A model generated the notes under the pieces. The model did not search any database. It saw only the letters and a program-made list of their open reading frames with translations, and was not told the origin of the DNA. A program made the translations under genes and the position numbers. From Tannerellaceae bacterium (GTDB lineage Bacteria; Bacteroidota; Bacteroidia; Bacteroidales; Tannerellaceae), in the NCBI GenBank assembly GCA_031266215.1, contig JAISBL010000025.1, positions 1 to 36,408 of the forward strand: a stretch of DNA of 36,408 nucleotides. Direction: 5' to 3'. The stretch's first letter is position 1; each line of letters begins with the position of its first letter. This document shows positions 7,409-35,385 of the stretch, one piece after another.

Positions 7409-7627
7409 GTACCGGGATACCTCGTAAGAGCGTGCCGGGACGCCTCGTAAGCATGTGCCGGGGCGCCTCGTAAATACGTACAAGGATACCTCGTAAGCAC
7501 GTACGAGGGTATCTCGTAAGCACGTACTGGGATACCTCGTAAACACATACGAGGGTATCTCGTAAGCACGTACTGGGATACCTCGTAAACACGTACGAGG
7601 GTATCTCGTGCACGTACGGGGGCGCCC
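7409..7627. repeat. 23-bp tandem repeat array 1 (about 9.5 units)
   Basis: Units start at 7409, 7432, 7455, 7478, 7501, 7524, 7547, 7570 and 7593, with a partial unit at 7614. The first eight are exactly 23 bp; the ninth is 21. Units 5, 7 and 9 contain the perfect hairpin TACGAG-GGTAT-CTCGTA. Units 6 and 8 have TACTGG-GATAC-CTCGTA, so later units alternate in a 46-bp higher-order pattern. Across unit joints CCTCGTA pairs with TACGAGG. It lies between the divergent acetyltransferase and metY genes. The rest of the 7249-7758 gap shows only a 10-bp inverted pair (TATACATAAT at 7302, its complement at 7677) around the array. Confidence 0.9.
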
Positions 7628-7699
7628 CATACCATGCCGATAGATAGCGGGCGAAGGGAAATACCGCGTATATGGTATTATGTATAATGAAAGAACGGT

Positions 7700-7707
7700 T
7701 ACCTTTG
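7700..7707 (+). promoter_or_regulatory. candidate -7 element for metY
   Basis: TACCTTTG fits the Bacteroidota -7 consensus TAnnTTTG exactly and lies 52 bases before the metY start codon. No clear -33 TTTG is seen at 19-21 bases upstream, so confidence is modest. Confidence 0.4.
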
Positions 7708-7758
7708 CGCCGCCGGATTTGTATTTAATAACAGTATAACCTTTATAAAGAATGTATT

Positions 7759-9057
7759 ATGAGCAAGTTTAGATTTGAAACATTACAGGTGCATGCCGGA
7801 CAGGAAGTGGATAAGACCACGCATGCAAGGGCTTTGCCTATTTATCAGACGTCTTCTTATGTCTTTGAAGATGCCAAAGACGGGGCTGATCTTTTCGGCC
7901 TTAGAAAGTTCGGGAATATCTATACCAGGTTGCAAAACCCGACGACCGATGTCTTTGAAAAACGTGTCGCCGCCCTCGAAGGGGGTGTCACGGGACTGGC
8001 TACTTCTTCGGGACAGTCGGCGCAGTTCATTGCGCTGAACAATATATTGCAGGTCGGAGACAATTTTGTGTCTACCTCGCATCTGTACGGCGGAACGTAC
8101 AATCAGTTTAAGTCGCAGTTCAAACGCCTTGGGATAGAAGTCCGCTTTACGCCCGACGATGAGCCGGCTTCCTTCGAAAAACTCATTGACAGCGCTACGA
8201 AGGCGGTCTATCTGGAGACTATCGGCAACCCGGAGCTTAACATCCCCGACTTTGACGCTATCGCAGCCATAGCCAGGGAGCATGACATACCGCTGATAGT
8301 AGACAACACCTTCGGGGCGGGCGGTTTCCTCTTCCGCCCGATAGAACACGGAGCGTCTGTAGTGGTAGAATCGGCCACCAAATGGATAGGCGGTCACGGC
8401 ACTTCGCTGGGCGGGGTGATAGTAGACAGCGGGACGTTCAACTGGGGCAACGGAAAGTTCCCGACCTTCACGGAGCCTTCGGACAGCTATCACGGACTGG
8501 TCTTCTGGGATGTATTCGGGGCCGGAGGGCCTTTCGGGAATATTGCGTTCAACATCCGCGCACGTGTAGAAGGACTGCGTGACTGGGGCAATACGCTCAG
8601 TCCGTTCAACTCGTTCCTGCTCGTCCAGGGCCTTGAAACACTTTCGCTGCGCGTGGAACGTCACGTACAAAACACCCAGGCTCTGGCCGAATGGCTTGAA
8701 AAGCACCCGAAGGTGGAGTATGTGAACTATCCCGGCCTGAAGAGCAACAGGTATCACACACTGGCCAAAAAGTATTTCCCACTGGGACCGGGGGCCGTAC
8801 TGACCTTCAAGGTGAAGGGCGCTCCGGAGAATGCAGACAGGGTGATAGACGGCGTTAAGCTGCTCAGCCACCTGGCTAACGTGGGAGACGCCAAGTCGCT
8901 CATAATACACCCCGCAGCTACCACCCACGAACAACTGTCGCCGGAAGAGCAGAAAGCCTCCGGAGTGGAGCGCGGGTTGCTGCGTATATCGGTAGGCATC
9001 GAAAATATAGAAGACATAAAGGCCGACCTCGCCCAGGCCCTGGATGCATTAAAGTGA
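7759..9057 (+). CDS. metY: O-acetylhomoserine sulfhydrylase (aminocarboxypropyltransferase)
   Basis: This 432-residue PLP enzyme has the family's typical length and start ([14 protein letters not shown], then [12 protein letters not shown]). It makes homocysteine from O-acetylhomoserine and sulfide (or acts on related acyl-amino acids), the direct-sulfhydrylation route to methionine. The PLP Schiff-base Lys is K208 in [36 protein letters not shown] and the C-terminal [10 protein letters not shown] region, which lines the carboxylate site, are all present. It starts a likely two-gene operon; the next gene begins 7 bases after its stop. Upstream are a -7-like element and the array. No SAM riboswitch was recognised. 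Confidence 0.93.
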
Positions 9058-34785: not shown

Positions 34786-34806
34786 GCTGGTAATAAAATT
34801 AGTACG

Positions 34807-34814
34807 CAAATATA
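34807..34814 (-). promoter_or_regulatory. candidate -7 element of the fkp operon
   Basis: On the minus strand TATATTTG fits TAnnTTTG exactly, 21 bases before the preferred fkp start codon. This placement supports the start at 34785, since the longer frame would begin upstream of the promoter. Confidence 0.45.
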
Positions 34815-34933
34815 GCAAATTCATGTGCGGACACGAGCCTGCCCTGCCCTCGTTTCCTCACTACCATACCAGCCGCCCCTCTCGCCTCCGTTGCCAGAGA
34901 ACACGCCCCCGTTTTTTGTCATGCGCCTTTGAT

Positions 34934-35385
34934 CAGGGCAGACGCATTTAAGAACCTGAGTCAGACGTAAGAAAAACCGGCATTGCTCTTTGCATAACCT
35001 GATGCGCCTCCGTAAAATGCGCCCGTGACGCTGTCCGGGTGAGGGTTTCCGGTGTGTGCTGACACCGCAGGCCTTAAATGTCGATAACCTGGTTCCTTGT
35101 GAAGTGACAACAAGGCTCATTGTGAGAATCTAATACAGTAGCGTGTGGGCTCCACACAGGGTGTATGGAATTCTCACACAGGGCGTGTGAACACTTAACA
35201 CAGTAGTGTGTGAACACTTAACACGGGGCGTGTGAACGCTTAACAACCCTCGTGATAAGGGATTATAAGAGAAAGGAAACAGAATAAAAATAAACGTAAG
35301 TATGTGCTCGCATTATTGTGACTATCCGCCGGTAACAAACGGAATACTGACAGAAATTACCGGAGTATTAAATGCGTCTGCCCTG
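34934..35385. mobile_element. 452-bp MITE-like element with 18-bp terminal inverted repeats
   Basis: The left end CAGGGCAGACGCATTTAA (34934-34951) is the exact reverse complement of the right end (35368-35385). CGCCTTTGAT is present at 34924-34933 and again at 35387-35396, a 10-bp target duplication with one extra base at the right junction. No transposase or other credible gene lies inside, so it is non-autonomous. The CAGGG ends and 8-10 bp duplications are compatible with ISAs1-type elements, but this is a guess. It contains a hairpin CGGTGT/ACACCG near 35050 and tandem array 4. It sits between the divergent fkp and PD-(D/E)XK genes. Confidence 0.8.
35118..35247. repeat. 22-bp tandem repeat array 4 (six units) inside the MITE-like element
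   Basis: Units of 21-23 bp begin near 35118, 35141, 35162, 35184, 35206 and 35229. Each has GTGTG- and CACAC-like arms, for example GTGTGGGCTCCACAC (a near-perfect hairpin) and GTGTGAACACTTAACAC, followed by AGTA or GGGG. TGTGAGAAT (35121) and ATTCTCACA (35170) in units 1 and 3 are also perfect complements. Units vary more than in arrays 1 and 3. Confidence 0.85.

Follow-up and report, generated by a model that had tools for sequence, protein, structure and literature searches.

BrickBuilt, a miniature inverted-repeat transposable element (MITE) of Porphyromonas gingivalis, is presented in the accessible portion of its description (PMC4596501) as an intergenic, dispersed repeat built of tandem 23-nt units without spacers, enclosed by a leader and a tail with short terminal inverted repeats (TIRs) that match an insertion sequence, some copies lacking both. 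The same portion reports bidirectional promoter activity in Escherichia coli, trouble in genome assembly, and a copy, BrickBuilt_16, that adjoins clpB. It also describes MITE464/PgRS, likewise a MITE with a tandem array and with similar ends, so that one genome holds two types of array; its 41-nt repeat corresponds to about two 21-nt units. Here, we describe arrays of this general kind in a Tannerellaceae bacterium, on a stretch of 36,408 nucleotides (contig JAISBL010000025.1 of GCA_031266215.1, our contig C39), hereafter the window. The window contains four intergenic tandem arrays, and the fourth lies inside a MITE whose ends, judged by their sequence, are those of an ISAs1-family insertion sequence. 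Our reading, to which we assign a probability of roughly 0.7, is that all four arrays belong to a genome-wide class of minisatellites, that the element around array 4 arose by transposition followed by amplification of its units, and that arrays 1 to 3 have a like origin.

The MITE occupies positions 34934..35385 on the + strand (452 bp). From left to right it consists of a TIR (CAGGGCAGACGCATTTAA, 34934..34951, + strand, 18 bp), a leader module common to other copies (34952..35072, + strand), array 4 (35109..35254, + strand), a tail module common to contigs C119 and C91 (35255..35367, + strand), and an 18-bp TIR on the - strand (35368..35385), to which the left one is 100% complementary; 416 bases separate the two arms. 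A target-site duplication, CGCCTTTGAT, flanks the element at 34924..34933 and 35387..35396, with an extra T at 35386. Array 4 comprises about three diverged units followed by about three close 22-23-bp units of the ACACAGGGCGTGT type, the latter called by Tandem Repeats Finder at 35176-35254 (period 22, 3.1 copies). Together with its end, the leader is 90% identical to that of C119 over 143 bp and 91% identical to that of C36 over 139 bp. The element is thus short, multi-copy and free of a transposase, 452 bp being too little for the 341-aa enzyme described below. A paralogous uninserted site is present in the same window: when the flanks of the MITE are joined, they align without gaps to 23807..23861 (- strand), about 25 bp to the right of array 3, with 51 of 55 positions identical across the junction.

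The uninserted site is one copy of a dispersed module of at least ~55 bp (23807-23861, 34880-34933 and 35397-35440 in the window; L126:126-175; L135), which sits upstream of a repeated gene at 35465, beside array 3, and elsewhere; the MITE has inserted into one such copy. The repeated gene is an open reading frame (ORF) at 35465-36406, at least 314 aa long, that runs off the end of the window, its 3' part encoding coiled-coil-like heptads in 21-bp repeats. Its upstream parts are 92-95% alike over ~360-395 bp at L109, L110, and twice in L135, and the ORF has no match in Pfam or NCBIfam at E 0.01.

The CAGGG end and the 10-bp duplication raised the suspicion of an ISAs1-family insertion sequence as the parent. 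In the assembly of the window's genome (134 contigs, 2.70 Mb, 87% complete), a PF13808 match on contig C95 lies between ends CAGGGCAAACGCATCTAA spanning 1,179 bp, and the ISAs1-type transposase gene there is broken in pieces. A genome of the same genus (G010, contig C41, 5225-6401) has the same kind of ends, one with a mismatch, around a 341-aa ORF that NCBIfam identifies as an ISAs1 family transposase (E 9.8e-119). Among 123 genomes of the family, made up of the window's own and the 122 others that served as the comparison set, 40 contain the end pattern. The 816-bp element L123:6079-6894, with ends CAGGGCTGACGCATCTAA and TCAGATGCGTCAGCCCTG, no array, and no clear target duplication, is another derivative of the same insertion-sequence type.

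Across the window's genome, the end pattern (up to one mismatch) was found at 43 sites, as against 0 for a reversed-pattern control. At the 30 sites that were read, six of them with the inward sequence shortened by a contig end, an array of period 20-24 lies within 600 bp inward in 19 cases and outward in none (0/30). These 19 sites represent 13 distinct elements, although for one (C9) the array starts 500 bp inward and may be a neighbour. Seven elements have both ends; six of them are array-bearing, 311-660 bp. Exact 10-bp target duplications flank three of the seven, namely C1 (GGGAATCACA), C79 (GTCCCGCTGG), and C16 (ACTCATGAAC), and near-exact ones flank two more (C39, the array 4 element, with its one extra base, and C119), with no clear target duplication at C23 and C20.

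When copies of the MITE are compared, leaders and tails align, whereas the arrays between them differ. For one subtype, the arrays can be read as portions of a single row of units: ACAAGGTNCCTTGT, ACAAGCATACTTGT, ACAGGCATARCTGT, ACAAGGTACCTTGT, a degenerate unit, ACACAGGGCGTGT, ACACAGTAGCGTGT, and the tail. Each copy of the subtype holds parts of this row, with different units expanded. C119 retains almost the entire row, each type occurring once or a few times. The ACAGGCATARCTGT unit and its near variants are expanded in C26 (16 times) and C85 (~9), ACAAGGTACCTTGT in C91 (13) and, mixed with variants, in L137 (11), ACACAGGGCGTGT in L120 (8), and the last two types of the row in array 4 of the window (3). 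By differential expansion of one unit row, loci can therefore hold unrelated-looking arrays with one geometry. The period follows the MITE subtype, being 21 in C1, C5, C23, and C79 and 22-23 in C16, C26, C37, C39, C85, C91, and C119; C22 and C9, which have other leader types, show period 21. One departure from this is seen at C45, whose 21-bp array belongs to the array 2 family and starts ~350 bp into a second-subtype leader.

The course of events that we propose is as follows. An ISAs1-type transposase would have moved a MITE carrying a row of diverged hairpin units, and unequal exchange or replication slippage would then have multiplied one unit or another. The outcome would be sister copies with unrelated-looking arrays, even though their leader modules are ~90% alike. 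The period would be inherited, in that tandem duplication copies whole units while the unit sequence drifts.

Set beside BrickBuilt, as covered in the accessible portion of its description (PMC4596501), the present system shares intergenic, multi-copy tandem arrays of ~23 nt, a leader, a tail, insertion-sequence-like ends, trouble in assembly, and a clpB-side copy. The ends, however, are IS5-like there (GAGACC...) and ISAs1-like here (CAGGGC...; CAGGGCAGACGCATTTAA); BrickBuilt has one unit consensus, AGAYCATARTATCCTCTCRTRTG, as against many units of period 21, 22, or 23 here; and its target duplications are uneven in length, those found here being of 10 bp (PMC4596501). The BrickBuilt unit has no match within 5 mismatches in our 616,553-bp sample of the window's genome. 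The array 4 element behaves as BrickBuilt does, yet its ends, units, and unit diversity place it outside that family. MITE464/PgRS is likewise set apart by its ends, as far as the same portion of the source shows (PMC4596501). PINSR of Prevotella intermedia and P. nigrescens is another abundant intergenic repeat in Bacteroidales but, in the part of its report that was accessible (PMC4755523), has a 188-bp unit without terminal inverted repeats and is not described as a short tandem array. Among the titles listed by a literature search, whose coverage left out most subscription papers, none concerned array-bearing MITEs with ends of the ISAs1 type. The window is a real instance of a known general kind, and an unusually rich one.

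That the arrays are a genome-wide class follows from a census with Tandem Repeats Finder (score at least 60, period at most 100) of 41 stretches totalling 616,553 bp (23% of the genome), which include the window and seven stretches picked for known hits. Of 74 arrays, 56 are noncoding by an open-frame rule, and 52 of these have a period of 21-23, distributed as 21 (25), 22 (3), and 23 (24). With all periods counted, five first-order Markov resamples of the same 616,553 bp yielded 1, 0, 3, 0, and 2 arrays. A 200-kb stretch of E. coli K-12 yielded 2, with periods 96 and 98 and none of period 20-24. The density of noncoding arrays of period 21-23 is 84 per Mb, or 81 per Mb without the seven chosen stretches. 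By comparison, a 307,841-bp sample from the same genus has 19.5 per Mb, with period 21-23 in 6 of 17 noncoding arrays, and 80 ClpB loci kept from other genomes, mostly Bacteroidales, have 23.9 per Mb, with 33 of 55. The nearest ClpB proteins among these loci (79-81% identical) come from Parabacteroides, Tannerella, and a Bacteroidales bacterium, which places the window's genome near these taxa. Six more noncoding arrays in the same-genus sample have a period of 41-43, about twice 21 (L309, L311, L320). Grouping by blastn placed 58 arrays in 24 families, and 44 of the arrays belong to the 10 families that have at least two members; the largest is that of array 2, its size being inflated by the choice of stretches. 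Array flanks are in common between different unit families. On our reading, the arrays are minisatellites of one genome-wide class, with tandem 21-23 bp units, many of them short hairpins, located between genes.

A first-pass annotation of the window had proposed that the arrays share a common generating process. This proposal is supported, as the genome sample is full of such arrays and the process behind array 4 can be named in part. The prospect it had raised that such arrays might be no commoner than in shuffled DNA did not materialize when tested on the 23% sample; its other reservation, that they might fall into unrelated known repeat families, applies in part, since they form dispersed families of a known general kind.

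The remaining arrays have no strand assigned. Array 1 (7408..7627) has 23-bp units in ~9.4 copies with a 46-bp alternation (called at 7408-7621, period 23, 9.4 copies) and has a GNAT acetyltransferase gene (-) on one side of its divergent gap and an O-acetylhomoserine sulfhydrylase gene (+) on the other. Array 2 (16082..16211) has 21-bp units in ~6 copies (16082-16207, period 21, 5.6 copies) and lies in a divergent gap between menA (-) and an ORF from near 16299 (+). Array 3 (23627..23787), with 23-bp units in ~6 copies (23640-23782, period 23, 6.2 copies), occupies a convergent gap and begins ~35-50 bp past the clpB stop codon. The gap of array 4 is divergent by long open frames, and its neighbours include a bifunctional fucokinase/fucose-1-phosphate guanylyltransferase gene. 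The sequence letters confirm four arrays at the places first proposed, with periods 23, 21, 23, and 22, as well as their intergenic positions, with arrays 1, 2, and 4 in divergent gaps and array 3 in a convergent one by long open frames. The exclusion of CRISPR also stands: in all four arrays the units abut without spacers. The initial count of 6-10 units per array is overstated for array 4, with its 3.1 close and ~3 diverged copies. A right arm followed directly by TAA, said to occur in units of every array, is found in that form 8, 2, 2, and 0 times in arrays 1 to 4, array 4 having TTAA instead. As a candidate motif TAA was rejected as chance, because TAA or TTA occurs in 12 of 24 units (one per family) against a shuffled mean of 11.8.

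The description of the arrays as locus-private proved wrong for all four, since relatives of each occur at other places in the genome. Array 1 is matched at one further locus (G000:C77:23333-23530, 83% identity, with no shared flank in the alignment), array 2 has six more (C36, C45, C54, C64, C90, C116), and array 3 recurs at C113, C127, C62, C10, and C4. At C113, units of the array 3 type sit next to units of a different family (GGTAAG/CTTACC) with nearly equal spacing, a mixture that fits unit drift within composite arrays. Matches to array 2 were found in 3 of the 122 other family genomes, all of other genera (G090 with 10, G042 and G093 with one apiece), and for arrays 1 and 3 no DNA match was found in any of the 122. 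The module to the right of array 3 is the sole flank of arrays 1 to 3 that recurs in the genome sample. Most likely, a process like that behind array 4 also produced these three arrays, which would be older or devoid of flanks; they could go back to old MITE insertions whose ends are gone, or to seeding by recombination.

Several observations weigh against this account. An array within 600 bp inward is missing at 11 of the 30 end sites; four of these have less than 180 bp of inward sequence, five lead into a different inner sequence and may belong to plain insertion sequences, and at two (C43 and the right end of C45) a leader or tail is present without an array. Among the copies used to assemble the unit row, both MITE ends are present in C119 and C39 only and one end in C26, C85, and C91, while L120 and L137 share flanks with each other but are not among the end sites. 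An intact ISAs1-type transposase gene was not seen in the window's genome (87% complete), where PF13808 occurs only in pieces, on C95 and C133. With up to five candidates per genome scored, the MITE body gave a single match, of 28 bp, in the 122 other family genomes. Inverted repeats of at least 14 bp are absent from the gaps of arrays 1 and 3 and consist in that of array 2 only of pairs within the array, the best flank pairs of arrays 1 to 3 are no better than shuffled, and, apart from the right side of array 3, their flanks have no second copy in the genome sample. Finally, descent fails to account for the recurrence of period 21-23 in other Bacteroidales. A plasmid collection searched with the MITE gave no match.

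A bolder alternative, which we rate as distinctly less probable than our own account, is that a process or factor common to Bacteroidales genera makes or keeps intergenic tandem arrays, independent of sequence, whose hairpin units span two helical turns (21-23 bp) or double that length; MITEs would then only spread the seeds. The window's genome would then be an extreme case, with ~80 arrays per megabase in the sample.

Somewhat less probable still is that the arrays arise in place, by slippage from chance palindromes, with no relation to transposition. Flanks without a second copy in the genome sample, as in arrays 1 and 2 and on the left side of array 3, would be expected under such an origin, and same-genus genomes have arrays with other units, partly in the same gaps: before menA in G012, before metY in G004, G005, and G028, and after clpB in G001, G022, and G030. 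Against it, all four arrays have relatives at other loci, and array 4 is part of a full MITE with a target duplication and an empty site. The arrays upstream of menA and metY in G012, G004, and G005 (L176, L204, L208) have periods of 21, 22, and 42 and other units.

The first-pass annotation had also suggested a protein that reads spacing and symmetry. We regard it as unlikely that the arrays, each with a sequence of its own, are platforms for one or more proteins reading the two-turn spacing and dyad symmetry, for instance nucleoid or regulatory sites. The narrow period distribution of the noncoding arrays (52/56), echoed by the same peak around ClpB (33/55), would suit such a protein, and the genome-wide set of units does form stems. 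As the whole-unit dyad score is a weak separator (12/53 at P<0.05), we used the longest perfect stem, which averages 4.94 bp in noncoding units against 3.43 bp when shuffled (18/53 at P<0.05) and 3.07 against 2.95 in coding units (0/14 at P<0.05). Taken singly, the consensus units of the four window arrays have stems not above shuffled (P 0.91, 0.85, 0.18, and 0.32 for arrays 1 to 4), so that the claim of self-complementary arms holds for the genome-wide set but not for the individual units on which it had been based. Pairing also appears in a comparison of distinct MITE-row hairpins, which derive from few lineages and are not independent: pair 4 is Watson-Crick, in three forms (A-T, G-C, C-G), in 19 of 30 against 9.0 shuffled, pair 5 in 15 of 30 against 10.9, and pair 6 in 8 of 30 against 8.2. 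For a hand-picked set of 22 such hairpins, pair 4 is Watson-Crick in 18. Within arrays, however, paired changes at stem positions number 16 against 19.5 expected under independence (31 arrays, 1,466 cells), and stem mismatches (79 G-T, 59 A-C) reveal no strand bias of the RNA type; there is no sign that pairing within arrays is kept as DNA or RNA. Because paired changes are not in excess within arrays, yet pair 4 is in excess between row hairpins, hairpins may influence the choice of the unit to be amplified rather than its maintenance. Nor does location favour a platform. With loci oriented by tblastn and arrays of period 20-24 or 40-46 sought within 500 bp, the side that is occupied in the window (after clpB, before menA, before metY) has an array in 3 of 10 loci from the same genus and in 4 of 58 from the rest of the family, with other units, and the opposite side of the same genes in 3 of 10 and 6 of 58. 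Such gaps are often occupied, but those of the window are not preferred, and arrays 1 and 3 have no DNA match in the 122 other family genomes. Overall, positive evidence for a protein reading spacing and symmetry was not obtained.

Equally doubtful is that the arrays act as RNA, in the form of transcribed hairpin rows that stabilize or end transcripts or give rise to small RNAs. The onset of array 3 shortly past the clpB stop codon would fit, as would similar arrays 4-57 bp after clpB in 4 of 75 loci, and BrickBuilt is partly transcribed according to the accessible portion of its description (PMC4596501). On the other hand, stem mismatches lack the expected strand bias, arrays 1, 2, and 4 are upstream of both neighbours, and the window has no Rfam match at gathering thresholds. 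The four arrays after clpB in other Bacteroidales, counted among loci with more than 300 bp downstream, have a period of 22-23 and another unit (L005:6906-7016, L013:3511-3615, L016:12598-12683, L022:12609-12659).

Repetitive extragenic palindromic (REP) elements moved by a REP-associated tyrosine transposase (RAYT, Y1) are very improbable: REP/RAYT palindromes are likewise short and at times clustered, and array 2 contains GTAG, but REPs of the GTAG type are linked with a Y1 transposase in the accessible part of PMC3733652, and PF01797 (Y1_Tnp), present in 5 of 14 control genomes, has 0 matches in the window's genome (87% complete).

Our default view is that the arrays are a by-product, selfish or neutral, that may incidentally affect the transcription of neighbours. 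Two similar predicted proteins (MKYxGYFLVAMLIA...SACAKVGDYVETGNADGDE...) are encoded in the window at 4779-5507 and at L119:3810-4709 (contig C16).

Arrays of this kind probably fragment the assembly of the window's genome. Seven sampled contigs start or stop within an array (C5, C13, C24, C54, C64, C77, C116; edges at L103:1-131, L116:1-101, L135:1-198, L141:1-101 and at the ends of L108, L125, and L133), and contigs C38, C121, C129, and C132 break ~100 bp inside a TIR. Besides breaking assemblies, the arrays might serve as strain markers. The finding links such arrays to a family of insertion sequences different from the IS5 type of BrickBuilt, and indicates that one mobile scaffold can yield unrelated-looking arrays by expanding different resident units of a row. 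The excess of period 21-23 in other Bacteroidales poses a testable question, namely what sets the period of bacterial minisatellites.

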